This document shows positions 23,629-41,028 of a stretch of DNA of 64,000 nt, piece after piece; positions within the stretch are counted from its first letter, which is position 1; each line of letters starts with the position of its first letter. The DNA lies in assembly GCA_025782575.1 (NCBI GenBank), contig JALGYY010000043.1, positions 142,501 through 206,500 on the forward strand, given 5' to 3'. A program made the translations under genes and the position numbers. This DNA is from a bacterium. GTDB taxonomy: Bacteria; Orphanbacterota; Orphanbacteria; Orphanbacterales; Orphanbacteraceae. Under the pieces are notes generated by a model. It did no database searches, was not told the DNA's origin, and saw only the letters and a program-made list of their open reading frames with translations.

Positions 23629-25320
23629 TTAGTTGATACGGATAACCTCCACCCGACGGTTCTCCAGGCGTCCCTCAGCCGTATCGTTCGAAGCGATCGG
23701 CTTCTCTTCGCCGTAACCGACTGAAGAGAGACGGGAGGCGTTGATGTCGTGATTGACGATGTAGTTCATCACGGTGGTCGCACGTGCCTGGGAAAGCTGC
23801 TTGTTGTACGCAGCGTCACCCACGGCGTCCGTGTGCCCCTGGATCTCGATCTTTACATCGGGGTTCGCAGCGAGTGCACGAACAAGCTCGTCAAGGATCT
23901 GCTGGGAACCGAGCTTGAGCTTGGCCGAGTTGAACTCGAAATGGACGCCGTTCAGGTTTTCGCGCGGCGCGATGTCCGGGCAGCCGTCGTCGTCCATATA
24001 GCCGTTATAAGTCTCGGCATTGTTCATGCACCGGTCCTTCGTGTCCGGAATACCATCCTCGTCATTGTCGAGGTCCGGGCAACCGTCAGCGTCCTCGAAA
24101 CCGTCGAAGTCTTCCGGTTCATGGATACACTGGTCATCCACGTCGAGGATGCCGTCGCCGTCCTGGTCGTCCATTTCCGGGCAGCCGTCAGCGTCGTCGA
24201 CGCCGTCGAAGTCTTCCGCCTCATCGGGGCAGGAGTCGAGCTCGTCAATGATGCCGTCGCCGTCATTATCCAGGTCCGGGCAACCATCTTCGTCTTCGAA
24301 TCCGTCAAAATCCTCAGCGGAATTCGGGCAGCCGTCATCGTAATCCGGGATGCCGTCGCCGTCACGATCGCGCTCACGCTCGCCGAAGCCGAGGTTGAGC
24401 GAAATCCGGTGGTTCTCACCGAGGAACTCTTCCATTTCATTTACAAAGGCGTAGTCAATACCGATGCCCCACATCTTCGGTACCTTGAGACCGATACCGA
24501 GCGAGTAGCCTTCGTCCTGATGATCACGACCGAGGTCGCTCACACCGGCACGGAGCGCCATCATGTAACCCGGATGGTACTCAAACCAGGATTCGACGCC
24601 GAGATGGAATACGGTCTCGCTGTCCTCACCATGCTCGATATCAGCCGCGATCGTAAGATCGCCGATCGGATGGAGAGCAACTCCTGAACGGATGTTGAAC
24701 GGGACCTCTTCCTCGTCGATCTCCGACCAGAGATCCTGGATCGCGAGACCGAAGGTGACGAAGCTGTTCGGCTCGAAGAATGAACCTACATCAACACCGC
24801 CGCCGGACTGCGACTCGTCATCGATCTCCTGGTCGAAGATCTTGCCTGCCACGCCGAATCCGAACGGACCGTACTGGCGGGCGACAACGAGATGAATCAG
24901 GTTGTCGGTGAGATCGAAGTTTCCTCCGAACGTATTATCGCTGCCGTAACGATCGAAATCGTCCCAGCCGGCGTTAGTCCAACCGATTCCGATGGAAGCC
25001 ATCGAAAAGGACTGGGCATAGCCGAAGAAGTTGTGACTACGGTCGTAGTCGTATGAGCCGGTATACATGAACGTGAAGTTCAGGTTGTCGACTCGAGCAA
25101 TACCGGCCGGGTTCCACATGCTTGCTGTCGCGTCATCTGCCACTGCCGTGTACGCACCACCCATACCCAAGGCTCGAGCACCAACACCGATGCGACTGAA
25201 TGCCGCCGCACTGTTGTCGCTGCCGTTACCGTCCTGGGCGAATGCGGGGCCTGTGGAGCCAACGATTAGAGCAAGGGACCCGAGCGCAAGAGCTGCAAGG
25301 GCTTTGCCTCGAAAGCGCAT
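23629..25320 (-). CDS. PorV/PorQ-like barrel fused to TSP3 repeats and an OmpA domain
   Basis: Protein of 563 aa from ATG at 25320 (AGGAGG nine bases upstream). A signal peptide ends at 'PAFAQ'. Residues 35-330 are a beta-barrel of the PorV/PorQ kind, opening with 'FSRIGVGARALGMGGAYTAV'. Residues 335-450 hold four thrombospondin-type-3 units ('D.DGDGI.D..D.CP...EDFDG..D.DGCPD'), which bind Ca2+. Residues 460-563 form an OmpA C-terminal domain with 'IQGHTDAVGDAAYNKQLSQA' and 'SRLSSVGYGEEKP', which anchors to peptidoglycan. PorV proteins carry type IX cargo in Bacteroidetes; here the barrel may instead link the outer membrane to the wall. It is probably expressed alone, between a strong terminator and a possible sigma-54 promoter. 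Confidence 0.9.
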   Translation of the reverse strand: MRFRGKALAALALGSLALIVGSTGPAFAQDGNGSDNSAAAFSRIGVGARALGMGGAYTAVADDATASMWNPAGIARVDNLNFTFMYTGSYDYDRSHNFFGYAQSFSMASIGIGWTNAGWDDFDRYGSDNTFGGNFDLTDNLIHLVVARQYGPFGFGVAGKIFDQEIDDESQSGGGVDVGSFFEPNSFVTFGLAIQDLWSEIDEEEVPFNIRSGVALHPIGDLTIAADIEHGEDSETVFHLGVESWFEYHPGYMMALRAGVSDLGRDHQDEGYSLGIGLKVPKMWGIGIDYAFVNEMEEFLGENHRISLNLGFGERERDRDGDGIPDYDDGCPNSAEDFDGFEDEDGCPDLDNDGDGIIDELDSCPDEAEDFDGVDDADGCPEMDDQDGDGILDVDDQCIHEPEDFDGFEDADGCPDLDNDEDGIPDTKDRCMNNAETYNGYMDDDGCPDIAPRENLNGVHFEFNSAKLKLGSQQILDELVRALAANPDVKIEIQGHTDAVGDAAYNKQLSQARATTVMNYIVNHDINASRLSSVGYGEEKPIASNDTAEGRLENRRVEVIRIN

Positions 25321-25388
25321 CACAGTGATCCTCCTCTCACAGGGATCGAATGAGTCATTTCTCTGGTCTCTCGACCTGAAGCTCATCC

Positions 25389-25403
25389 ACTGTTTATGTG
25401 CCA
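25389..25403 (-). promoter_or_regulatory. Possible sigma-54 promoter (weak -12) of the PorV-OmpA gene
   Basis: Minus strand TGGCAC ATAAA CAGT: a perfect -24 element with correct spacing, but GT in place of the invariant -12 GC. It is about 70 bases upstream of the start codon. Compare the exact matches at 43923 and 54867. Confidence 0.35.
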
Positions 25404-25506
25404 CCAAACTTCCTACCTTCCTATTTCAATCCTACCGAAGAAGAACCCCGGCTCTCCGGGACCCTCCTCCTCTTCGAGAACCGCTGAGGCCCTCGAAGGG
25501 AAGGAC

Positions 25507-25544: not shown

Positions 25545-28500
25545 CTAGTTGTCGTCGCCGAACCGGCGGACGGCAATCTTGACGGTGGCTGCCTGTGAGC
25601 CCGAGCCGTCGTTGGCAACGATGCGGGCGATGTAACCGCCGCTCGCTACCGGAGTGCCACCCGAAGTGGTTCCGCGCCATTCGATTGATCCGCCATTCAC
25701 ATGACCGGGGGAGACATCGCTGTACGACTGCCGCCAGACCAGGTCACCGGCGAAGTCGAAGATACTCACTTCGACCATCGCAGGACGGGATCCACCAAGA
25801 TTGAAGTCGAACTTCGCCGCGCCATCCGTCGCCGGATTGAACGGGTTCGGCCAGACATGTGCATTAGTGATCTGTAGCACTGTCGCACCGATCGTGAAGT
25901 TATGCGTCTTCGAGAACTCGTTACCAATGTGATCCGCTCCGCTCAGCTTGAGAGCGTAGTTACCGATCACGTCCAGACCCACGAGGGTCAGGTGGAACTG
26001 ATCATCGTCGACGCCGACTTCCATGATGTTGTCGTCATCATTCGGAACGTATGTGGCCGGGTTGATCGAGAAGACCTCACCCTCAGGTCCGACCAGCGTG
26101 GCTGTAAGACTGTTGGCGTCGATACCGGCGCCACTGATCGTCTCACTTCCGTCACTAAGATCGGCCCAGACCGGGATCTCGCTTCCAGGAGCGACCACTG
26201 AGTTCTCCACCGGTGTGGTGAACGCCACATCAGGAGCGCTCGTGTCAACGATGAACCGGCGCGCCACGTACTGCGAACCGACGTTACCTACACAGTCGAA
26301 CGGGCCGAAGATGTACTTGGTGAACTCTTCATCGTCGTCCTCGCCGTTGGTGTCATCACCAAAGTCGACGTCAAGGCCGATGTGCTCGACCTTGGACGAG
26401 TAGAGAACCACTTCGATCTCACGTCCGTCCCACTGTTTCATATTTGCCGTAAGCGGCAGCGTAACCCAGAGCTCGTCACTCGGATCGTAGAAGACCGAGT
26501 CGTCACAAGCATCCGCGTCCGAGTGCGGGCAGATCTCCGGAGCGAAGGTCAGCATCGCAGGGGTTGCGGCCTGAATCAGCAGGCGCTCACTGTACTCATC
26601 AATATCGAACTGATCGTCTTCGTCATCGATCAGCCAGACGTCAACCTTCAGACCCATGTCCTGGATCGGAATGCTGAAAGATGTATTAGCTGTCGTAACG
26701 TTAACGGTCACGTTGATGTCACCAAACGCATCCGGATTCGTTGCGTTATCCTGATCCGTTTCGATCTCGTTGACGATCTCGATGTCGATGTTGCTGGCAC
26801 CGTTATTGAATCCACCGAAGATGATGTTCAGGATCGCGGAGATCGAGGTGGCTTCTGTAAAGACACCCGACTCCCAATCAGTGATCTTCAGGCGAATTCC
26901 GTCGCTACCTTCACCGACGAAGCAATCAGCCGTTCCGACACACGGACCGTTGATGAATCCGCCATCCCATTCGATACGAGGAGCGACGACGTCGACCATG
27001 ATCTCCTTGGTCAAGGAGTACCAGAAGTCTTCATCGCCATCTCTCCACTCGAGACGAACCGTGTGCGGTCCGCCGGCCAGGAGATCCCTGGTGAGTGTGG
27101 AGTGCCTGTAGCTGAATGTGTGCGGATAGTCATCCTCGTCTTCGGTCTGGAAGAGCAGGGATCCGTTACCAAGGACGCCGTCATCGGCGGCCACGAGAAT
27201 CCCATCAATCCAGATCTTGAGATCATCCTCATCGATGTCGTCATTCCCGTCGCCGTCCGCAAGGAACGGAGCGAGGGTGAAGACGATCTGCGGTGTCTGG
27301 TTCGTGTATCCGTCGCACCACGGAGTAATGATGCAGTCTGCACCATTCACAACACCCACCAGGCTCCAGACTCCGTAGGAGCAGAGATTCTGGACGTCGA
27401 ATGTCACGGTGTTGGTTGCCGTGTCGACCATCACTTCACCGATGAATCCGGCCTCCCAGTGATCATCTTCCCACCAGGCGGGATAGATTCCGTCGGCTTC
27501 ATTGATGGTCACCATCTCACCGTAGGCGTTCTTCACTGTCAGGTCTTCATCGTTGTATTTCAGCGTTACCGTAGCCCAGTAGCCGTCGGTAAAGCTGGAG
27601 CAGCCGCTTCCATCGAAGCAGTCCGTAATCCGAATGTCATAAGCCGGACCGAACGGACGGACGAAGAAGCGCTGAGACTGGTCGTTACGGTAGTTAGGCG
27701 TGCGGGTGCCGGTCATGAGAAGGCCACCGTATGTACCGCTACCGCGCGGAACCGAAACCGTCAAGTTGTCATCACCAGGTATCGCGACCCAACCGTTAGA
27801 GCCGGTGCCCGCGTTCACCTCGTGAACAGCAATTACGTGACGGATGATATCGATCCGTGCCGGCTCATCGTTGAACTCACCAGCATCACCGCTGTCAGCT
27901 ACGACCGCAGCGTTCACGTAGACGAACCCGCCACAGCCGATGGAATCAAGCAGGCTGCGAGCGGTGAATCCGGCCCAGCGGTAAGGATCGAGTCCGGCAC
28001 CGGCGTTCATCGGATCCATTTCGACGATCTCGGAGAAGTTCGGCTCTTCGTCGTCACCACCAGGCGTCACGGTCCGGTCGCCGGTTACCAAGACCCAAGG
28101 CTTGGCAATGGCTGACCAGTCAGCCGCGATGTTCGAGTCGATCACAACTTCAATGTAGAAGTCGGAATCGAGATCGCCGGTGCCTCCCGGAAGGAGCTGC
28201 ACTTCGTCGTAAGCAAGCCACGGAGTCCCGTCCGGATGGACCGGCTCGAGATCCCGGTTGAAGCGATCGGATACGACCTCAGCCACCGTGTACGGCGGGT
28301 TGGTGTCGTAGTAGAGGACATCGCCGGACTGACCGGAGTTGTCCAGCGTGATCGCGACGGCACGGAGTTCCATCTGATCGCCAATGCTCCAGATGGTTCC
28401 GGGGCCGATCTCCAGTTCCGAGCACCAGAGTGAATCGGGGCTGTCACCGTCGGGGTTTCCGATCGGCTGCGACTGCAGACCGAAGGTGACCCATGCATCG

Positions 28501-31500
28501 GAGACCTTACCGGCGGCGTTGTCGTCACCGTTATCCCCACCCTGGCCTGCATCAATCCGCTTGTACTGGAACATCACCTCATCGACACGCTGCTGGCACC
28601 ACTTGGTCGCGTAGACCTTGACCTTGGTCGTGCCGTTGATGTCGTTGAGAATGTCCGGCTCCCAGCAGATGATCGCGGCACGCGGCTGCGCGCTGTCAAG
28701 CACGTTCACCGGCACCCAGACCGAGAGTCCTTCGTTACCACACTCATCGAATGCACGGGCACGGACCCAGTAGGTACCAGGATCGAGAGCCGTGGTATTC
28801 CAATGTGCGGCGTAAATATTCGGGCCCTCATCGTCATCGGGGTAACCGAGGTCGATGTGGTAAATCGTTTCTGTCGTATCGACAGCCACCTCGAACTCGA
28901 CAGAAGTAATACCCGTCTCATGCGATTCAGGTAGATCCTGCTCGTCGTCGGTGACGGTCGCGTAGAGATTGACCGGCTCGCCGGCGGCGATGTCGATTAT
29001 GACACCGTTGTTGACCGGGAAGAGCACGGTGGTCTCTACACCGTTCACAACGCGAATGACATCCAGTCTGGTCATGGCGACTTCAGGTGCGTCGACATCG
29101 ATTTCGACCTCGGTGGCGAGAACGTGAACCGTCTCGTTGCACGCGCTGTCGAGAACCGTGACGCGGAAGTCGTATTTGCCGCTCGTGCGGCCATCAACGA
29201 GCCAGGTACCGGTGTAGTAACCGGTGCCGGCATCGTAGAGCCACTCCTGGATACCGTCGCTGCTCCACTCGTCGTCATCGTCCACGTCGACCGACTTCTT
29301 CCACTCGAAGGAGACTCCGGCAGGATCCTGCCAGATGTCCTTCGGATCGTCGGTCTGCACGAAGATGAGCGGCACCACCGGGTCGCCGTCCTCATTGAAG
29401 AGGAAGGGACAGACACCGTCACCCGGAGCGACAGTCGCCAATGTCGGCGCGACCTGATCGATCACCAGATGGATAGGTGCGGAGCATGCTGCCGCGTCGT
29501 CGGAGTTCCCGGCATCGTCCTGGGCAACCGCCTTGAACCAGAGGTCACCGTTGGGAAGCATATCGCTGTCCCAGTTGTTCAGATACCAGAACCAACCATC
29601 GCTGGAAACCAGATCCTGATCAGCAAGCAACCAGTTCTGATTGTCCGTGCTGTACCAGAACGCCACGTCCTGAACATCGGTCTCGCCGCCCTTGATCGTT
29701 GCGGTCAGGTCAATAGAACCATGAACCCGCTCGTTCTCAGGCTGCTCGATCTCGCCGTCACCGCAAGCGTGACGTATCAGGTGCGTGATGGTCGCGCACG
29801 GCGCCGAATTATCCTCGACACAGAATGTGAGGCCACGGCCGTCGTACCACGCGGTCTCGATATTGTCGCTGTTGCAGAGCAGATCGCTCGCGATCGCGAC
29901 GATGTCGTAGCAGGCGCCGACTTCAAGAGCCGGGCTCTGCTGACCGGTCGACCAGTCAAAGCTGTATGGACGGCTCGAGTCAGGATTCGTCGTCCAGTTA
30001 AGGAGCTCGAAACCCATGCTCGCGTCCATCAGCCACCAGGCATCTTCGCCCGGAGTGTCATCATAATGGTGGCGCATCCACCAGGTGACCGTGATGTCTT
30101 CGGTGTCGTCGCCATTTGTCGTGGCGCCCACCTCGACGGCCGAGCCACGCTCGAGCGTGATATCGGTCGCGTTGACACCGTCAAGTGTAGCCGTCGCCAG
30201 CGGAGCCGTCTTGTCGAGCACGAACGTGTATTCCATAGTCGGAATCTCCACGTTGTCCTCTACATCGACCGCCCACGCACGCACCTGGTAGGTGCCTTCG
30301 GGCCACTTGTAGTCACCGGTGATGTGATCGAGCTCGTTGCAGTCCCAGTCGGTATCCCAGATCGTCACCGTATGATGACCCTGGGTCTCGTTGCTCGGTA
30401 CTTCATCGATATCGATCGTCTTCCACTCACTCCACGTGGAGTGCATGGCTTCGAACGTCACCTGCGCGATACCGCTATCACCGATCGCCGTCTGCGCGTG
30501 CAGATGGACAGTGCTCGTCCACCAGATGGTCTGCTCGTTCAGAACAGTCTCATCCACGTCGGCAGGATAGAGTTCGCAGTCACCAGCCGTAGCTTCCACG
30601 AGCCGCGTACCGGTCGGTGCGTGACGATCCTCGATGCGCACATCGGTTTCACAATATGTGTAGTTCCACGGCGTGTCCCAGGCCTTGGCGATGATCGTGA
30701 AGTCACGATCCTTCACGAGCCAGTCAGGCGAGGTCCACGTCATCGTAGAGGTCCACTTGGTTCCCGGAGTATCGAGCTGATCCGGTACCGGATTATTGTC
30801 CGTGCCGATGAGCACGGTATCACCGGTAATCGGAGCCACGTACCAGTAGGTAACGTGCTCGATATCGGTCTTGAAACCGTTGTTATTCGGGTTGTCCTGG
30901 CCGAACCAGGTGAAGGTGACGTCGTCACCGGCCGCGTACTGTGCGATATCTCCGTCCTCCGCGTTATCCGCGTCGAAGAAGAGGCACGTCGGGTCGGTTA
31001 CATCGACGCCGGCCAACTCGAATGTCGGGTCCAGAATGTTCGTATTACATGCCCAGTCAGTGGCCACTACGCGCCATCTGTAGACACCGTCACCGTCCGT
31101 GATATTCGCGGCGGCGAAGGAAGTCCAGCTGTCCACGTCGAGCCACCAGAAATTCTCACCGTTCGGACCGCTGAACTGCGGTTCGAAGTCGAGAGAACCT
31201 GCATCGTCCCAGGAACCGAGGACACCCCACCACGTCGAGTCCTTGCGGACCTGAAGTGTCATGGAGGCGACATCGTCGTCCGCAGTGTAGACGCGGAACG
31301 CGACGTCATCGGTGTAGATGTTCGGCTTCACGACTCGCGATGAATCGTTCTCTACGCCGTCATCGTCGTACCACTCAACGTCATCGATGAACTGGGTGAT
31401 CGTGTAGTCCACGCTCGGAGCGACACGATCGATGCGGACGCGCACCTTGAGCGGAGTCTGGTCGGGGTTACCGTCCAGGTCGCGGGCGAGCATCCAGATA

Positions 31501-34500
31501 TCAACCGAAGTCTCCTCACCAGGATCGGCGAACTGGTTCGCGTCCCAGAGGATCGTAAGGCTGGTTCCACTGGTGAACTCATTGGTCACGGCAACCGGCT
31601 CGGTGGCGGCTGCGCCACCTACCTCCTCGACCCAGAGCTCGACCAGTGATACCTGGCTCGCGCTCCCTGCGAGAATCTTACCGGAGACAGTAACCGAGTC
31701 ACCCTGAATAGCGAGATTCGGTGATGCGATCGACAGCGCGGATCCGCAATCCTCAGAGGTAAGCTCCAGTATGCAGGCTGCCGGCCCGACTGTGTCGTTC
31801 ACGGCCACGATGACCGGTTCGACGTCGTCCAGATCGGTCGCGTTACACGCTGAATCCACACCGACGGCAAGGAACTGTACGTACTGATCCTGCTCGAGGG
31901 TCAGCCAGTCCGTCGAGAACTGGACGCACACTTCGTTCGTACCGTTAGCTGGCACCCACGGATTGTCACTGTTGTCGATCGGGGTCGGATCGATCACCCG
32001 CCACTGTCCGACCGAGTCGGAGAAGTAGAAGATGTAGTAATCGAGACCGATCGCGTCCTCATCCGTCGCGGGCTTGGCGCAGACTTCGAAACTGTCTCCG
32101 AAGACGGCGACGCTACCCTGAAGCGGCGAGGTCATGACGACCAGCGGCGGATCGAGGTCGACCCGGATGGCGCGATCGAGAGTCGAGATCGTGGTGTTCC
32201 ACGCATCGTCACTCGCCACGACACGAATCGAGAAGGTGTAGTCCCTCTCATCCGGCTCATCAGTTTCACCGTCAACGTCATTATCGATGTTGTCGGTCCC
32301 CGGGTTGTAGATGGTCGGCCAAACGGTCTTGAGCGCCCATCCGTTCTCCCAGTCGAACCAGTTATCCGATCCGAGTTCAACCCAACGCGTCTTGTGGTCG
32401 TCGGTTGCGAACTGGAAGGAAACCTCGCTGTTCTCGAGGATGTCCTGGATTTCATTGCCGCTGTCGCGGAGCACCACGAAGATCGTGAAGCTGTCGCACG
32501 GCGCGCTGTTCGAAACGATCGTCGGATCGATGTAGATCTCTTCGATCGCCGGACCCGTGCAGTCAATGATGAAGACTACCGGACCCTGCGCGCTCGTCAG
32601 GTTCGTACCCTGGCGGCCGAAGTTGCCCCACGCACTCGCGACGGCGTTATGCACGCCCTCTCCGAGCTCGGAGTCGGTGTAGTTCCGGTGCCAGAAGTCG
32701 GACCGGACCGTCACCTTGGAACCTCCTGAGGAAGCACCGTTGGTATCGTTTCTACGATCGTCGGAAACGATGAACTCGTCGCCCGACATATCGATATCGA
32801 AGAAGTAAGTGTACGGAACGGTACTGCCCGTCACGACGATCGGTACCTGAGCACCCCACCAGCCGTCATCGGCTGCGCCGTCGTTGTGAGTTCCGTCATC
32901 GTACATCTGGTACGGCGTTCCGGCCCACTGCAGGAACACGTTCTCAATCGAGTCACCGAAGATGGCTACGCTGTCCTGCAGGTAGTCAGATTCGTTCATC
33001 GTGACCGTGAGGAGAAGCGTGTCACCCTCTACGTAGTGAGTCAGATCCGAAGGCGTTCCCGAATCGAAGCTGAGCTTCACCGAGTCCGCCACTACCGAAT
33101 CCACGTAGACGAACGCATCGTACTCGACGCCGCAGAGCTTGCTCTTGCGGTGATCGCCGTCCGTCCGGCGGAGCGGGTTACCGGAATCGTTATACCGGGT
33201 GAACGGAGCCGCCTCATCATGGAAGAAACCATGAAGGGTGACTTCGGGACCGGCAATGCTCTCTATGATGACAACTTTGCCTTCTGAGCAATCGGGCTCG
33301 GTCAGGCAATCGTCGGCACCACCGAAGTCGTAGTCCACGGTCGCGATCAGATCGTAGGCATCCGTGTAATCGGTTTTCGTATCCGGTACCGGTACGGTCG
33401 GATCCCACGCGCTGGTGAAGAATCCGTTCTCGTCGACGTCATCGTCGGGCGAGTCCTGGATCGTTCCCCAACCACCGTAGTTATAGCTGACCCATGCTCC
33501 GTCGGTAGCCGAGAGCTGGGCGCCGAACTGAATCTTCCGTCCGGCGTTCATGACTTTGTAGTCGTACTTGGTCGGACTGGCAAGCGCGGCGAAAGCAGCC
33601 GCTGTGTGGAACGTGGCGAGGCTGTCATTAACGAGAACCTCGACGTCACACGCCCAGTTTGCCTCTCCGCCGAACATCGTGAATCCTGAAAGAGTCACGT
33701 TGACCGAATCGGAAAGATACGGATAGAAGCTCTGAACTGTGAGCTTCTCACCAAGCACTCGGTCGGAATACTTAAACCAGACCGCTGCCGCTGCCGGATC
33801 CGGCGGTGTGCCCAGATCAACCAACTCGGCGCGGATCCAAAGCTCAGCACCCTTCTGTACTGAATCCAGAACCACGGAGCGATGCTTGTCGAGATTGCCC
33901 GCCTTGGTCCAGTTCAACGGACGCGCGGCCGCTTCGATTTCCGCGGTCGTGGTCAGCTTGCTGAATTCGTAAGGGTTCAGACGGTTCACCGACGTGTTGC
34001 ACTTGTCGTTCTCCGCGATCACCTGGAACTGGTAGCAACCGTCGATAAGTCCGGCGATTCCCCAATCGAGGTGGTACGGGTAGACGAAGTCGGTTGCCAC
34101 CGGACCCTGCCACGGATTGTTCAGATTCGTGAGGCCCGCATAGGCGCGCGGATCGTTCCGGTACCAGATGTTGACCGACTGAGTCGCGCTGGTATCTTCG
34201 ACTGTCACATGGAGCTTCAGGGTATCGACGGTCGGACCGAACTGGTCACCGCCGTCCGTATCCTGAGTACTCGGATAGACGTCGACCGTGTCGCCGTCTT
34301 CCGTGGTCGCCCATACGACATCCGTCTCAGGCGCCACATTCTCCATGATCGTGAACTGCGTCACCGTCGGACTCGGGTCCGAATTGCCGTTCACATCCTG
34401 GGCGAGGGCACGCACGAAGAAGAGCGTGCTCGTCCGGAAGAGTGTGTCGCTTGTCAGTGCATCGATATCGATGAATACGCAGTACGGCGAGCGGAAATCG

Positions 34501-35621
34501 CGCGCTTCTACTGTGTCTTCATCGGCGTTGCCGTCTCCGTCATTGTCGAGACCGTCAGCCATATCTTCTCCGACGAGAGGATGAAGCTTCCGACCGGTGA
34601 GATCACCCAACTCGCCGGCGATGCCATTGCGAAGAAGGAGGTCACCGGCGTCGACTGTGAAGGTCTGGTCAACGGAGTAATCGTCACGAACGATGGGGTC
34701 GCCACCGGAGAACCCGAGTGTGTCATCCACGTCCGCGAACATATCGTCGTCATCGTTCACGTCCAGATCGTTCCAGTCGATGTTGTTCGTCGACCACTGG
34801 AACTTGATCCAGTCGAGATCATCATAGTCAGCAGCATCGTTCAGCGACGCCCAGACCTTCACGAAGCCGTGGTTACCGCAGACCGAGCTGTCGAGCGGCA
34901 TCATGCAGGATGAATCAGCATTCATCCATACCTGGCCACCGTCACCCAGCGCGACCTTCCAGACGCACGCTTCGGGGAAGTCATTGTCGATCCCGCAACA
35001 GATGAACGGAATCGGAGTGTTGCTGTCGATATCGCTGTTACCGAGCTCGTCGGTCGCCACGGCGCGGACAAGGAAGCTGCCCGAAAGGTCAGCGATGTCC
35101 CACATGGCACTCCATGTCTCGAGCGCGGTCGTACCGAACGAACCGCCGAGATTATCGCCGAAGATCCAGTCTTCGCCGGTAAAGCCGTCAGCGGCCCCAT
35201 CGGTGTAGAACTCGGTGGCGAGGAACGCGGTCACAGCGAATGAATCCGCCGCGCCCACTACCGAACCGACGATTACCGTGTCTCCGGCGCCTGTGCTGTA
35301 GAAGCCGCTGGCGTCGAGATCAGCAACCACCGGATCGAGAGGTGAGTAGCCGTCACCGTCATAGTCGATGAATCCGATCGTCGCCGGGAACGTGTTGTGG
35401 CGTGCGCCACCGGTCAGGAGCGACACATCGTGATACGTGCCGTCGCCGACGCGGAGGGTTACGTCACCACCCGGATCCGTGCTGCTCGAATCATCATTGT
35501 CATCGTTCGCGATAGTGAGCCACGTCGCATTTTCATCGGCGAGGCAGTTCGCGTTTGAATCGGGCCAGGTCTGGAATTCCACATGGTCAAACCTGAGCGT
35601 GGAGCTGCATGGTGCTGTCAT
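25545..35621 (-). CDS. Giant surface protein, second part (after +1 frameshift), FlgD-like C-terminus
   Basis: Open frame of 3358 codons. The ATG at 35621 is a poor start: it is preceded directly by TGA, has no good ribosome binding site and would give no signal peptide. The frame is best read as the continuation of the ORF at 35587-40404 after a +1 shift, giving one protein of about 4,950 aa. The body is a long array of Ig/FN3-like beta domains of about 100 aa, with recurring 'W....LP.G.Y..RA.A.D..GN' strands followed by 'D...AP.....P..G'. Asp-rich Ca-binding loops such as 'DNIDNDVDGETDEPD' are scattered through it. The C-terminal 100 residues hold 'NAHVWPNPFNPATDG' and a FlgD-like sandwich. 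Probable adhesin, stalk or S-layer-like surface fibre. Confidence 0.85.
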   Translation of the reverse strand: MTAPCSSTLRFDHVEFQTWPDSNANCLADENATWLTIANDDNDDSSSTDPGGDVTLRVGDGTYHDVSLLTGGARHNTFPATIGFIDYDGDGYSPLDPVVADLDASGFYSTGAGDTVIVGSVVGAADSFAVTAFLATEFYTDGAADGFTGEDWIFGDNLGGSFGTTALETWSAMWDIADLSGSFLVRAVATDELGNSDIDSNTPIPFICCGIDNDFPEACVWKVALGDGGQVWMNADSSCMMPLDSSVCGNHGFVKVWASLNDAADYDDLDWIKFQWSTNNIDWNDLDVNDDDDMFADVDDTLGFSGGDPIVRDDYSVDQTFTVDAGDLLLRNGIAGELGDLTGRKLHPLVGEDMADGLDNDGDGNADEDTVEARDFRSPYCVFIDIDALTSDTLFRTSTLFFVRALAQDVNGNSDPSPTVTQFTIMENVAPETDVVWATTEDGDTVDVYPSTQDTDGGDQFGPTVDTLKLHVTVEDTSATQSVNIWYRNDPRAYAGLTNLNNPWQGPVATDFVYPYHLDWGIAGLIDGCYQFQVIAENDKCNTSVNRLNPYEFSKLTTTAEIEAAARPLNWTKAGNLDKHRSVVLDSVQKGAELWIRAELVDLGTPPDPAAAAVWFKYSDRVLGEKLTVQSFYPYLSDSVNVTLSGFTMFGGEANWACDVEVLVNDSLATFHTAAAFAALASPTKYDYKVMNAGRKIQFGAQLSATDGAWVSYNYGGWGTIQDSPDDDVDENGFFTSAWDPTVPVPDTKTDYTDAYDLIATVDYDFGGADDCLTEPDCSEGKVVIIESIAGPEVTLHGFFHDEAAPFTRYNDSGNPLRRTDGDHRKSKLCGVEYDAFVYVDSVVADSVKLSFDSGTPSDLTHYVEGDTLLLTVTMNESDYLQDSVAIFGDSIENVFLQWAGTPYQMYDDGTHNDGAADDGWWGAQVPIVVTGSTVPYTYFFDIDMSGDEFIVSDDRRNDTNGASSGGSKVTVRSDFWHRNYTDSELGEGVHNAVASAWGNFGRQGTNLTSAQGPVVFIIDCTGPAIEEIYIDPTIVSNSAPCDSFTIFVVLRDSGNEIQDILENSEVSFQFATDDHKTRWVELGSDNWFDWENGWALKTVWPTIYNPGTDNIDNDVDGETDEPDERDYTFSIRVVASDDAWNTTISTLDRAIRVDLDPPLVVMTSPLQGSVAVFGDSFEVCAKPATDEDAIGLDYYIFYFSDSVGQWRVIDPTPIDNSDNPWVPANGTNEVCVQFSTDWLTLEQDQYVQFLAVGVDSACNATDLDDVEPVIVAVNDTVGPAACILELTSEDCGSALSIASPNLAIQGDSVTVSGKILAGSASQVSLVELWVEEVGGAAATEPVAVTNEFTSGTSLTILWDANQFADPGEETSVDIWMLARDLDGNPDQTPLKVRVRIDRVAPSVDYTITQFIDDVEWYDDDGVENDSSRVVKPNIYTDDVAFRVYTADDDVASMTLQVRKDSTWWGVLGSWDDAGSLDFEPQFSGPNGENFWWLDVDSWTSFAAANITDGDGVYRWRVVATDWACNTNILDPTFELAGVDVTDPTCLFFDADNAEDGDIAQYAAGDDVTFTWFGQDNPNNNGFKTDIEHVTYWYVAPITGDTVLIGTDNNPVPDQLDTPGTKWTSTMTWTSPDWLVKDRDFTIIAKAWDTPWNYTYCETDVRIEDRHAPTGTRLVEATAGDCELYPADVDETVLNEQTIWWTSTVHLHAQTAIGDSGIAQVTFEAMHSTWSEWKTIDIDEVPSNETQGHHTVTIWDTDWDCNELDHITGDYKWPEGTYQVRAWAVDVEDNVEIPTMEYTFVLDKTAPLATATLDGVNATDITLERGSAVEVGATTNGDDTEDITVTWWMRHHYDDTPGEDAWWLMDASMGFELLNWTTNPDSSRPYSFDWSTGQQSPALEVGACYDIVAIASDLLCNSDNIETAWYDGRGLTFCVEDNSAPCATITHLIRHACGDGEIEQPENERVHGSIDLTATIKGGETDVQDVAFWYSTDNQNWLLADQDLVSSDGWFWYLNNWDSDMLPNGDLWFKAVAQDDAGNSDDAAACSAPIHLVIDQVAPTLATVAPGDGVCPFLFNEDGDPVVPLIFVQTDDPKDIWQDPAGVSFEWKKSVDVDDDDEWSSDGIQEWLYDAGTGYYTGTWLVDGRTSGKYDFRVTVLDSACNETVHVLATEVEIDVDAPEVAMTRLDVIRVVNGVETTVLFPVNNGVIIDIAAGEPVNLYATVTDDEQDLPESHETGITSVEFEVAVDTTETIYHIDLGYPDDDEGPNIYAAHWNTTALDPGTYWVRARAFDECGNEGLSVWVPVNVLDSAQPRAAIICWEPDILNDINGTTKVKVYATKWCQQRVDEVMFQYKRIDAGQGGDNGDDNAAGKVSDAWVTFGLQSQPIGNPDGDSPDSLWCSELEIGPGTIWSIGDQMELRAVAITLDNSGQSGDVLYYDTNPPYTVAEVVSDRFNRDLEPVHPDGTPWLAYDEVQLLPGGTGDLDSDFYIEVVIDSNIAADWSAIAKPWVLVTGDRTVTPGGDDEEPNFSEIVEMDPMNAGAGLDPYRWAGFTARSLLDSIGCGGFVYVNAAVVADSGDAGEFNDEPARIDIIRHVIAVHEVNAGTGSNGWVAIPGDDNLTVSVPRGSGTYGGLLMTGTRTPNYRNDQSQRFFVRPFGPAYDIRITDCFDGSGCSSFTDGYWATVTLKYNDEDLTVKNAYGEMVTINEADGIYPAWWEDDHWEAGFIGEVMVDTATNTVTFDVQNLCSYGVWSLVGVVNGADCIITPWCDGYTNQTPQIVFTLAPFLADGDGNDDIDEDDLKIWIDGILVAADDGVLGNGSLLFQTEDEDDYPHTFSYRHSTLTRDLLAGGPHTVRLEWRDGDEDFWYSLTKEIMVDVVAPRIEWDGGFINGPCVGTADCFVGEGSDGIRLKITDWESGVFTEATSISAILNIIFGGFNNGASNIDIEIVNEIETDQDNATNPDAFGDINVTVNVTTANTSFSIPIQDMGLKVDVWLIDDEDDQFDIDEYSERLLIQAATPAMLTFAPEICPHSDADACDDSVFYDPSDELWVTLPLTANMKQWDGREIEVVLYSSKVEHIGLDVDFGDDTNGEDDDEEFTKYIFGPFDCVGNVGSQYVARRFIVDTSAPDVAFTTPVENSVVAPGSEIPVWADLSDGSETISGAGIDANSLTATLVGPEGEVFSINPATYVPNDDDNIMEVGVDDDQFHLTLVGLDVIGNYALKLSGADHIGNEFSKTHNFTIGATVLQITNAHVWPNPFNPATDGAAKFDFNLGGSRPAMVEVSIFDFAGDLVWRQSYSDVSPGHVNGGSIEWRGTTSGGTPVASGGYIARIVANDGSGSQAATVKIAVRRFGDDN
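35586..35592 (-). other. Candidate +1 frameshift site GUU-UGA-C
   Basis: The upstream ORF ends CAG GTT TGA, and the next frame continues GTT (T) GAC CAT. Skipping one T joins both ORFs with no lost sequence. The heptamer GUU UGA C is the prfB-type +1 shift arrangement (CUU UGA C) except for the first base; the AGGGGG helper sequence of prfB is not present upstream. A miscounted T in TTT would give the same picture. Confidence 0.6.
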
Positions 35622-38600
35622 TCAGCACGACCTGCGGCTCGATGTACGCCCGGAGACCGAGCGTATCGATCGTCACGCTGACGATCTTGGTGAACTTGAT
35701 ATTGGAATTGCCTTCGCAGTCGATACCGATCGCGCGGATGTCGTAGTTAGCGGCAGCCAGTGTATCGGTGCGCCACTTCACGTCTACCGGCGGCATCGAG
35801 TCGAACGGCGTAGCTGTGGACCCGATGGTGTACCAGGTACCAGGCGTGCCGTCGCCCGAATTGGTCCGACGCTGCTGGAATTCGATCGACACGATGTCGT
35901 TCGTCAGCGGATTGCCGTCCCGGTCATCAAGGTCAGTGCCACCGACCGTAAGATGGACCGAAGAATCCGACGGAACGATCGCGCCGTTTACGAGATTCGA
36001 ATCAAGTCCGACACTCGTAAGATTGGTCTTCGGGAAGACATGGTCAACCACTTCGACCACCAATTCGGCGAACACCGTGTCCGTGTCGGCAAGAGCCGGC
36101 TCGAAGACGCCGGTGGCGCCGAACGCCTGGCAGTAGAAGTAGTAACGCAGTGTCAGATCGCACGGATGGTTCTCGACGATCGGTGCGGTCCAGTCCACAT
36201 CGTACGGAAGCCCATCGCTATCCGCTCCGACGCGAGTCCAGGTACCGAGCCACGTGCCGAGTGAATCATCCCAGACCTGGGTGTAGAAGACGACCGAGTC
36301 GATCGCCGCACCCGTTCCGATTGCCTCGAGCGTGTAGCTGAGAGGCGCGGCAGGCGAAGTGAAGCTCGAGTCGTCAGAATCCCAGACCGTGTAGTCGGTG
36401 TTGGCGGCAATCGCGCTGTCCGCTCCGGTGTTCTCACCGAACTTGACCAGATCGATCACGCAATCCACACCCGTCGTATCAACGGTCAGGCAGATCGTGT
36501 TGGCAATCGCGTTGTTGTGATTACCGGTCCGATTGCCCTCGTTCTCCGTCAACGGAGGCGAGTATTTAGGACCGATGAATCCGCCCCGCATGTCGTACGG
36601 AACCGCGCGGAGCAGGAACTCCGTGTTGTTCGAGATGCTGTACAGGTTCTGCACGAGGCGCATGTTCAGGTTGAAGCCCATCAGGTCACAGTAAGTGTAG
36701 ACCAAAGGACTGCCGGTCGGCCCCGGTGCGATCACTTCCTGCAGATGCGGGAAGAGGAGATCGCGCTCATCACCGGCGATGCCGGCTGTGGTGTCCGAAG
36801 CATCGACACCGGCGACGTGCAGCAGGTAGGGCCAGTAGTTCACACCGACACCCTGCGTGCCGTCGATATGATCGTTGGCGAGCACGGATGCGTCGGCGAG
36901 TGTCCAGGCCGTTGTGGCCATGGTCGTACCGTCCCACATGCCGTCTTCATCATCATCATCGACCCAGAGGTTGTTCTCTGCGTAGAGCGTATCCTCAGGG
37001 TTATCGATGATGCCGTCGTTGTTGTTATCGATCCCGTCGTTCTGACAGTGGATGCCGTCACCACCGGTAAATGAACTGGTGTCGGCTGCGTCCGCGGCGG
37101 CATCTTTCGTCATCGCCGTCCGGACCTGAATGTCCAGCGTATCAGCCAGGCCGTCCCAGTCATCATCGATGCCACCCCAACCCGGGAGGCCGTCGGCGCC
37201 GATCGCGCCCGGAGGATCGAGATGCAGATCCGACCAGCCTGCGCCGGTGTTGATCTGCAGAACGAGGTAATCAATGTCATTCGAGTCACTGAATGCGGTG
37301 ACATCGAAGTTCGCGTAGTTCGAAAGAACGTAGCATTCGCTCTCGCTCGCCACTTCGGGAAGGAGGTTACCGGACCCTGTCGAATCGACGAGGCCGTTCC
37401 GGCGGACCATCTTCGTGAACTGGCTCTGCTCGGGAGCGAGATTATCGAAGACCACCATGAACGAGTCTTCAACGACGGTCATGTTGTCGTTGATATCCGT
37501 GATCATGATGATTGACTTCAGCCACTGTACCGGCTCCGGATTCGCGAGCGCTGCATCGAGGTTCGCGATCGTAGCCTTGTAGATGTGGTTCTCGCGACGG
37601 ACGAACGGACCGGGCGTACCCGGGAATTCATCTGTCTGGACGGGCGAGGTGTCAAGATAATCGAGGGCAGGATCGCCACCCGCATCGTGCACTTTGTTGC
37701 CGTTCAGATCGTTGAACGGCTCGCCCTTGGTGTAGGTACCACTTCCGTCTTCATCGACATACGCTTCCGCGTAATCTCTCTGGCCTACCTCACACGAATC
37801 GTTCGGGAGGTGGTAAGGCCAGCAGTCCGTAAAGTACGGATCGGTCGGCGGGTTTGTCAGTGCTCCCGCACCGATATCACCGAAACCGCCGAATGAAGAG
37901 TCGGCGATCCAGTCGGCGTCATTGTCCGTCTGATCGTTACCCCAGGAGGTAAAGACTGCGGAAGCAATCGTATCGGCCGGCTGGTGAAGCGTCACGATGG
38001 TGATCGAAGCGGACATAATTGAAGAGTTAACGTCCGAAACCACCGAAACAGCCGTGGTGATGTCCGTTACGTCCATGAAGACGCAGACTGAATCACCAGG
38101 GCCATAGATCCGCTCCGGATTGGCCGGATCCCAGACCATGATCGGGAAGTCCGGATTCGTCCTATCGTTCAGGATAGTCGTGGAGCCACCGCAATCGTTG
38201 CCCCATTGATCAACCGAGGTCAGATAGAGGAAGCCGTTGGCATCACCCGCGTCTGAAGGAAGCGCGAAGGTGAACATACCGAATTCGTTCGAGGGGCCTG
38301 CCGCGACCGAATCGGTAAGGCCGGCATCCTGGTAGACCACCACGATGTCGAACGGATCGACGGCAAGCGTGTCACCGACGAGTGTGTCCGGCTCGGGAGC
38401 CTTGTGCCCCAGAATCCAGATATTGTCATCCGTAACGACTGTGTCTGTAGCGGTGAGCGAAGTCAGGAGGCCGTCAGACGGCAAGATGACATCACGCGGA
38501 CAGGCTACAGGACCGGCCACGAGCGCCTGCGGGAACCCGGTACAGGAACCGAGGTTTCCATCGCAGTTCACAGGGGCTACGCCGAAGAAGACCTCGCGGC

Positions 38601-40404
38601 CCTGCTCGATTTCCGTTCCCGAAACATCGAAAATGCCTGGCGTGAAATCTACGATTACACGAATCGTGTCGAGCACGCCCTTGTTCGGGTTCGGTATCGG
38701 AATCGCGCCGACAACGTTGATCCTCGTCTCGCAGTATGTCTGCGTGATCGCGCCGTCCACTCTGGTATAGAGAAGATAGTAGTCGGCGTTATCCGACGTT
38801 TCGACGAACTCGATATAGGCATGTGAGCTGGTCGGCGAAAAGCCGGGATTCAGCTCGGAGATCGATGTCTCCTGGAGCCCGGCGCTCGCGTCATTCGCGT
38901 CCATGATCGGTACCAGACCCGTACCGTCGTCACGGACCGCGATGACATCATCAGTCGCGTCGGTTGAAATGGCTCCGGTCCATGTGGCCGCGGAGTCAAC
39001 ACCGATCCGGCAACCATGAATGAATCCGACGCCACCCGCATCCGGCGCCCAGAGACCGACTAACGGGCCGCCAGCCGTGCCGGCCACGATTGACCAACCG
39101 GCGGTCGCAGCATCGAGGCTATCAATGTTGAAATCGGCGGGCACGGCGGCAATTGCGAGAGCCTCCGAGAGCCTGACCCAGATGGTGTCTGCTATGAGGC
39201 CCGATCCGTTGACCCCCCACGCCTGAACAACACCGGGACCTACACCGACCGGTACCGAAGTAGTCAGCACGTTTCCGATCGAGTCGATGGAACTCACGAC
39301 ATCCCCGGCAGCCGCAAATGCGATGAGATCGCCGGCACCAGGAATCGCAGTACCCGCATTCATCGTGGTTCTCAGATAGTTGCGATTCTGGTGAGCGTTC
39401 AGCGAGTCCCGCAGATCGATCACGAAGTTCTCGCCACCACCGGCAGACCAGCCGGTCGGAACAACAATCGTCGCGAAGGAGTTAGATCCTCCAAGCGGGA
39501 AGCCGATGTCCTGGTTGGTCACCAGGAAGAACTCATCGTCCGTCACGCCAGGCCCGGCGTTGTTCGAATTATAGAGACCGAACAGCGCTTTGGGACCGGT
39601 CACACCGGCACGATCGATGATCCGGACGTTATTGTTGCTGGTCGCCTGAGCGCCGCCGACGCCGGCAACCGTGGCAGCCGTATCGGTACCAGGTGTCGTA
39701 TTCAGATTAAGGGCGATCTTCGACATACCGGCCTGAATCGCCTTGTGGACCGTAGTGTCCTTCCAGGCGATGTAAACCGTATCCGGATTGGCGCCGCCCG
39801 GATTCGGGGCGATCACCGTGTAACCGGTGTCGGAGAGCTCAGCCATCGTGAAGAGTGAATCCGCGGCAAAAGCGAGCGGGTGCGAGAGCTGGACACAGAG
39901 AGTGTCGTTACCCGCATCGGCATCGCCATGCCCACCAGCCGCCGTGCCGATACCACCGGGGAATGCCCCGACGATCACCGGACCGACATGGATCTCCGCG
40001 AAGGAGTAATCCACCGAGCTGGTAGCAGTACCTGTTCCCCACTCCGTACCAGCGATCTGGCCAAGAGTATCCTCGATTGCGACCATCGAGGTACCGGGAA
40101 CCGGTGCCAGCGTGAAGCCGGTAATAGTGACTACATTGGCATAGCCTGTAGCAGCCACACCAGCGGCCACGGCGGCCCCTGCCGGATCCGTAGCATCACT
40201 GAAGCTGAAGTCGGTCAGCGCGGGGGTCCCAGTGACCGGCCGGCTGAAGACAAGGGTAAGTGTCGTCCCGTTGTAGGTTGCGTCCTCGATCGACAGGCTT
40301 CCGATTCCCGGTAGCGCTTGCGCTGAACCAGCGAAAAGCGTTCCGAGAAGGAAGAGCGCGACGAGAGACACGGACGTCAGCCGTCCCTTCCCACGACTAT
40401 GCAT
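35587..40404 (-). CDS. Giant surface protein, N-terminal part with signal peptide
   Basis: ORF of about 1,605 codons from ATG at 40404 (AGAAGGAGGG seven bases upstream), starting 'MHSRGKGRLTSVSLVALFLL' with cleavage near 'GSAQA'. An alternative GTG at 40509 also has a good site (AAGGAGG) and would add 35 basic residues before the signal, like the extended signal peptides of very large exported proteins. Residues 30-600 have bacterial Ig/SbsA-like strands ('YNGTTLTLVFSRPVTG'). Later come Ig-like repeats and Asp-rich loops ('NDGIDNNNDGIIDN'). It stops at TGA 35587-35589 in the middle of a domain and has no C-terminal sorting domain of its own, so it belongs with the ORF at 25545-35621. Confidence 0.88.
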   Translation of the reverse strand: MHSRGKGRLTSVSLVALFLLGTLFAGSAQALPGIGSLSIEDATYNGTTLTLVFSRPVTGTPALTDFSFSDATDPAGAAVAAGVAATGYANVVTITGFTLAPVPGTSMVAIEDTLGQIAGTEWGTGTATSSVDYSFAEIHVGPVIVGAFPGGIGTAAGGHGDADAGNDTLCVQLSHPLAFAADSLFTMAELSDTGYTVIAPNPGGANPDTVYIAWKDTTVHKAIQAGMSKIALNLNTTPGTDTAATVAGVGGAQATSNNNVRIIDRAGVTGPKALFGLYNSNNAGPGVTDDEFFLVTNQDIGFPLGGSNSFATIVVPTGWSAGGGENFVIDLRDSLNAHQNRNYLRTTMNAGTAIPGAGDLIAFAAAGDVVSSIDSIGNVLTTSVPVGVGPGVVQAWGVNGSGLIADTIWVRLSEALAIAAVPADFNIDSLDAATAGWSIVAGTAGGPLVGLWAPDAGGVGFIHGCRIGVDSAATWTGAISTDATDDVIAVRDDGTGLVPIMDANDASAGLQETSISELNPGFSPTSSHAYIEFVETSDNADYYLLYTRVDGAITQTYCETRINVVGAIPIPNPNKGVLDTIRVIVDFTPGIFDVSGTEIEQGREVFFGVAPVNCDGNLGSCTGFPQALVAGPVACPRDVILPSDGLLTSLTATDTVVTDDNIWILGHKAPEPDTLVGDTLAVDPFDIVVVYQDAGLTDSVAAGPSNEFGMFTFALPSDAGDANGFLYLTSVDQWGNDCGGSTTILNDRTNPDFPIMVWDPANPERIYGPGDSVCVFMDVTDITTAVSVVSDVNSSIMSASITIVTLHQPADTIASAVFTSWGNDQTDNDADWIADSSFGGFGDIGAGALTNPPTDPYFTDCWPYHLPNDSCEVGQRDYAEAYVDEDGSGTYTKGEPFNDLNGNKVHDAGGDPALDYLDTSPVQTDEFPGTPGPFVRRENHIYKATIANLDAALANPEPVQWLKSIIMITDINDNMTVVEDSFMVVFDNLAPEQSQFTKMVRRNGLVDSTGSGNLLPEVASESECYVLSNYANFDVTAFSDSNDIDYLVLQINTGAGWSDLHLDPPGAIGADGLPGWGGIDDDWDGLADTLDIQVRTAMTKDAAADAADTSSFTGGDGIHCQNDGIDNNNDGIIDNPEDTLYAENNLWVDDDDEDGMWDGTTMATTAWTLADASVLANDHIDGTQGVGVNYWPYLLHVAGVDASDTTAGIAGDERDLLFPHLQEVIAPGPTGSPLVYTYCDLMGFNLNMRLVQNLYSISNNTEFLLRAVPYDMRGGFIGPKYSPPLTENEGNRTGNHNNAIANTICLTVDTTGVDCVIDLVKFGENTGADSAIAANTDYTVWDSDDSSFTSPAAPLSYTLEAIGTGAAIDSVVFYTQVWDDSLGTWLGTWTRVGADSDGLPYDVDWTAPIVENHPCDLTLRYYFYCQAFGATGVFEPALADTDTVFAELVVEVVDHVFPKTNLTSVGLDSNLVNGAIVPSDSSVHLTVGGTDLDDRDGNPLTNDIVSIEFQQRRTNSGDGTPGTWYTIGSTATPFDSMPPVDVKWRTDTLAAANYDIRAIGIDCEGNSNIKFTKIVSVTIDTLGLRAYIEPQVVLNDSTMQLHAQV

Positions 40405-40509
40405 GCTCAAGCCCTCCTTCTGACGGGTGGCTGTATCGCCCCCGCGAGGTTTCTTCTTCCGAATCTGGAAAAGCGGGAAAACGCTTCGTAACCACTGACC
40501 GTTCTCCAC

Positions 40510-41028
40510 TTGCAGTCCTCCTTGACGATTTATTGTGATCTAAAAGGTATCTCACACTCACTCCATATAGAAATAGGGGACGCTTCCCCGTAATGCGGCT
40601 TTCGCCCGGGAAAGTGGACCCATTCAACTACTTATGATTTATTTCACTTTCAAAGTTTTACGTTCGCGCTACCCCTTCTCGGAGCTGACGATGAAAGGAA
40701 AATTCGCGGAAAACTTCCCATCTGTCGCCAAGCTTGTCAAGAAAAAATTCCTTTTGCGCATACGGCCCATCTTTCGGCGTATTTCGAAAAAGATTGAGTC
40801 TTTTCTTTATATCCGTCCAACCTTTCTCCAATGGCTGAACAGGCCTCTCACGGCCGGAAAAGAGAGTCTGAGGGGTCAGAAGCCGGGCTGTCCCGGCCGA
40901 TCAGACACCTCAAGCCCCCCCCTGAATCGATCAAATTCAGAGCGGCCATCAAGCTATCAACGCCCCCAGAGGGTGTCAAGAGAAAACACCCAAAACGGCT
41001 CAGGAATCCGGAACCGGCCTAAGACCGG
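40510..41028. other. Non-coding leader region of the giant gene
   Basis: About 520 bases, AT-rich near 40540-40700, upstream of the giant gene. On the minus strand CTATATGG near 40565 could be part of a promoter, and GGGGAAGCGTCCCC can form a small hairpin. ACCGG/CCGGT at about 41013-41029 forms a short hairpin right after the stop of the TSP3 outer-membrane gene. I see no convincing gene on either strand. Confidence 0.5.

Follow-up and report, generated by a model that had tools for sequence, protein, structure and literature searches.

A 20-nt deletion, rather than prfB-like recoding, interrupts the gene of a predicted giant surface protein in an Eisenbacteria-type bacterium

The autoregulatory +1 frameshift of prfB, the gene of RF2, takes place at a site made up of a Shine-Dalgarno-like element, a CTTT, a TGA and a C (PMC12421855). 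Other interruptions of reading frames have more ordinary causes. Isolated and unconserved frame breaks, such as the GeneTack singletons, should be taken for indels or errors and not for recoding (PMC3711429), and many of the frame-broken genes annotated as pseudogenes in assemblies are in fact assembly errors (PMC11017572). As for the protein described here, homologous giant Ig-like proteins with a FlgD-like tail are encoded in MAGs of Candidatus Eisenbacteria (JAJRWB010000052.1, JAGMBO010000057.1, WJJG01000290.1) and in an entry labelled Gemmatimonadetes (JAGUYC010000283.1). Where complete, these homologues have about 4,900-5,150 aa. A literature search on FlgD surface proteins of Eisenbacteria found nothing relevant.

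The locus lies within a window of 64,000 nt (contig JALGYY010000043.1; the coordinates below are those of the window) taken from a 4.88-Mb assembly of 49 contigs, called G000 hereafter, of an uncultured Eisenbacteria-type bacterium. Two large ORFs are found on the minus strand. ORF1 starts at ATG 40404, with an alternative in-frame GTG at 40509, and stops at TGA 35589-35587. ORF2, in another frame, runs from ATG 35621 to 25545 and encodes 3358 aa. The two frames overlap by 35 bases and the minus-strand bases 35592-35586 read GTTTGAC, as the initial annotation had it. That annotation had also joined the two ORFs by skipping one T and assigned them to one giant gene, which is borne out: the joined frame has 4952 codons counted from ATG 40404, and the alignments indicate that ORF1 and ORF2 belong to a single gene, of about 4,950 aa. 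The features of the locus are the following.

40405..40520, minus strand: conserved leader, with a Shine-Dalgarno sequence and an in-frame GTG (40509), then a second Shine-Dalgarno sequence ahead of ATG 40404 (family alignment, motif match)
35587..40404, minus strand: first piece, with a signal-peptide-like N-terminus and an Ig-like region, 1605 codons from ATG to TGA (ORF reading, codon alignment)
35586..35592, minus strand: scar GTTTGAC; compared with the relatives, 20 nt are lacking between 35589 and 35588 (codon alignment)
25545..35621, minus strand: second piece, carrying the other two thirds of the gene in a different frame, in register with the relatives from 35588 on (ORF reading, codon alignment)
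25605..25829, minus strand: FlgD Ig-like C-terminal domain, PF13860, just under the Pfam cut-off (Pfam match)

The two ends of the predicted protein had been described as a signal peptide on ORF1 and a FlgD-like domain on ORF2. The N-terminus of ORF1 does resemble a signal peptide, as judged by eye, and the second piece is devoid of one. At the other end, residues 3265-3339 of ORF2 match PF13860 at the right position (E 1.6e-5), with a score of 25.2 bits that remains below the Pfam cut-off of 27. Directly adjoining the giant gene, the minus strand encodes, at 23629-25407, a protein of the OmpA family that includes a thrombospondin type 3-like stretch. A similar Asp-rich ORF adjoins the giant gene in two relatives, G002 and G004, and on this basis the OmpA-family protein and the giant protein may be functionally linked.

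The relatives used for comparison are MAGs, mostly of Candidatus Eisenbacteria. Searches with the first piece (1640-residue query) located the gene once each in five of the six further family genomes and gave a single match in the source genome itself, so that a mis-join from a paralogue was rejected. In G002, G003 and G006 the gene is uninterrupted, measuring 4944, 4956 and 4959 codons between stops, respectively, and it is in frame across the point in G004, up to the end of the contig, and in the nearest relative, G001 (70% identity). Three distant loci, L052 (5158 aa), L054 (5001 aa) and L053 (cut by a contig end), also cross the point in frame. The same break was looked for and is absent: in each of the eight relatives that cover the point, a single frame continues across it, an outcome that the initial annotation had held to speak for an error. 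Taken together, these comparisons indicate a single-copy gene conserved in Eisenbacteria-type MAGs, whose predicted product is a secreted surface protein of giant size, Ig-like and ending in a FlgD-like tail. Elsewhere in the gene, G001 (L017, G001:C34) has an in-frame TAA at codon 3386 of 4942 (GTC GAT CTT TAA GAG), where the others have Glu, and a TGA at codon 5 of the leader.

What distinguishes the gene in the window from its homologues, which resemble it around the junction and are continuous there, is a loss of 20 nt. In the codon alignment, five family relatives have seven extra codons, [F/W]IHDxxV/I, between the codon matching the GTT of the window and the match to DHVEF. The relatives thus read QV[F/W]IHDxxV/I-DxVxF where the window reads QV-T-DHVEF. 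Ile-His-Asp is invariant in the seven aligned sequences and present in L053 too. The window has one base, a T, where the relatives carry 21. The difference of 20 nt is not a multiple of three and the homologues are intact, as befits a frame-breaking deletion; with 20 nt lost, the reading frame is displaced just as by one extra base. On this alignment, GTT-TGA-C reads as the seam of the deletion, GTT + T + GAC, and the TGA would be whatever stop the new frame happens to meet. The initial annotation had offered an indel in TTT as its second option. An indel is indeed the cause, but an inserted T was rejected since the relatives differ by 20 nt and not by one; the contrast of 21 bases with one is evident only from the relatives and hence could not be seen from the window alone.

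In an AlphaFold model of the corresponding G001 segment, of modest quality (pLDDT 62.7) and used only for this placement, the lost residues form the loop that connects strands 123-130 and 137-147 in an Ig-like domain. The deletion would thus both shift the frame and take out the turn FIHDxxV, which joins two predicted beta strands. A hairpin at the deleted segment, considered in G001 as a possible cause of the deletion, was no better than in shuffled sequences. On both sides of the junction, pN/pS relative to G001 is about 0.3-0.4, and purifying selection is also seen relative to G002. There has therefore been no long decay, and any real loss must be recent.

A non-programmed deletion of 20 nt, of assembly or mutational origin, very probably accounts for the split of the giant gene. 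Its likeness to the GeneTack singletons (PMC3711429) and assembly-derived pseudogenes (PMC11017572) lies in an isolated, unconserved site within an otherwise conserved gene having intact homologues; it differs from them in that the indel is of 20 nt rather than 1 nt. To place the break among others, 1.09 Mb of G000 and 1.2 Mb of G002 were compared in both directions. In G000, where the aligned conserved coding sequence amounted to 480 kb, three genes had a frame break: the giant gene, priA and an amidohydrolase-like gene. In the opposite direction, G002 yielded no convincing break, the only candidates being a short, doubtful case and a stop within a weak alignment. Most of the internal stops of the first survey passes were not breaks but shadow ORFs or upstream extensions. 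The break in the amidohydrolase-like gene (L093, G000:C2, about 7483) is an apparent 1-nt one relative to G002. That of priA (L096 and L177, G000:C2, about 65111) is a 19-nt loss near the C-terminus, which removes a conserved IRDRYRW-type motif; priA is unbroken in six of six relatives, matching to the last residue in one frame, and the DNA of the motif was read in G001, G002, G003 and G005.

Losses of 19 and 20 nt in one assembly, one of them in the housekeeping gene priA, suggest a shared technical cause. We infer that the deletion is probably an assembly-level error, and favour this origin over a real recent mutation. The latter, in which the 20-nt deletion would have truncated the protein in the population, or in a strain variant, as one of several independent gene losses, is possible but the less probable of the two. 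A clean loss of 20 nt is atypical for base-calling or sequencing errors, and the independent TAA of G001, together with the TGA in its leader, makes repeated real loss conceivable. Moreover, a scan of the conserved stretches of G000 for in-frame losses of 6-7 residues found none, so that there is no sign of a general, systematic deletion artefact. Against a real mutation stand the 10 kb downstream, still fully open, and the similar loss in priA. A stronger version, in which the break is genuine and these populations time and again truncate the giant surface protein or switch it off, as the independent TAA of G001 might illustrate, possibly under phage or grazing pressure, is unlikely.

Programmed +1 frameshifting at GUU-UGA-C, the prfB-type recoding put forward in the initial annotation, is highly improbable. 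The site shares with prfB the heptamer shape xTT TGA C, with UGA followed by C, and the second frame is open and under selection. In prfB of the same genome the site is canonical, GAAGGGTAT CTTTGAC, in agreement with the published consensus (PMC12421855), and relatives have the same arrangement. In contrast, the codon before the TGA of the giant gene, at 35592-35590, is GTT and neither CTT nor poly-T, and the sequence upstream, CTCCACGCTCAG, contains no match of at least 4 bases to AGGAGG, where a prfB-type site would have a Shine-Dalgarno-like sequence of the AGGGGG type some 3 nt ahead of its slippery codon. According to the usual decoding rules, the valine tRNA re-pairs poorly at UUU. RNA structure around the site is ordinary (z -0.43). 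The site is not conserved in any of the eight relatives, all of which are in frame with seven extra codons, and it appears to have been made by the deletion. Finally, as the conserved turn is missing, a +1-shifted protein would still be without it. Recoding was thus rejected on the grounds of the site itself, the Shine-Dalgarno-like element, conservation and product. That the locus represents two genuine genes, with ATG 35621 as the start of the second, is equally hard to credit: this ATG lies just upstream of the stop, making reinitiation possible in principle, but it has no Shine-Dalgarno match, whereas AGGAGG precedes both ATG 40404 and GTG 40509, the second piece has no signal peptide and none of the relatives is split at this point.

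The start of the gene deserves a separate description, and its conserved leader is a more interesting loose end than the frame break. Family-wide conservation extends over some 115 nt ahead of ATG 40404. GTG 40509 has an AGGAGG at 7 nt and is in frame with ATG 40404, 35 codons before it, and ATG 40404 is itself preceded by an AGGAGG, at 8 nt. Within the family, gaps in the alignment from the GTG to the ATG have lengths divisible by three. A GTG that is in frame and preceded by AGGAGG can likewise be seen by eye in L052, L053 and L054. In the consensus fold, an invariant CCUC pairs with the second Shine-Dalgarno sequence, with covariation almost absent (one of 21 pairs, covariation term +1.16); this predicted pairing could mask the second Shine-Dalgarno sequence. 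An Rfam search with the leader matched no family. The leader could correspond to an N-terminal extension, to a leader peptide controlling translation, or merely to a conserved 5' region.

In conclusion, the giant gene is real and so is the frame break in the assembly, and its cause is an ordinary deletion of 20 nt, not recoding. This eliminates what would have been a false candidate, a second bacterial recoding site of the prfB type. The case also illustrates that an apparent one-base shift can conceal a longer deletion, which becomes visible only when relatives are aligned. Were the sequence real, the ribosome would stop after residue 1605; as no ribosome-binding site precedes ATG 35621 and the second piece is devoid of a signal peptide, only the first third of the protein would be made, and the rest, its C-terminal two thirds, would be unlikely to arrive at the surface. 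The giant protein family is real, single-copy and conserved, and merits annotation as one gene.
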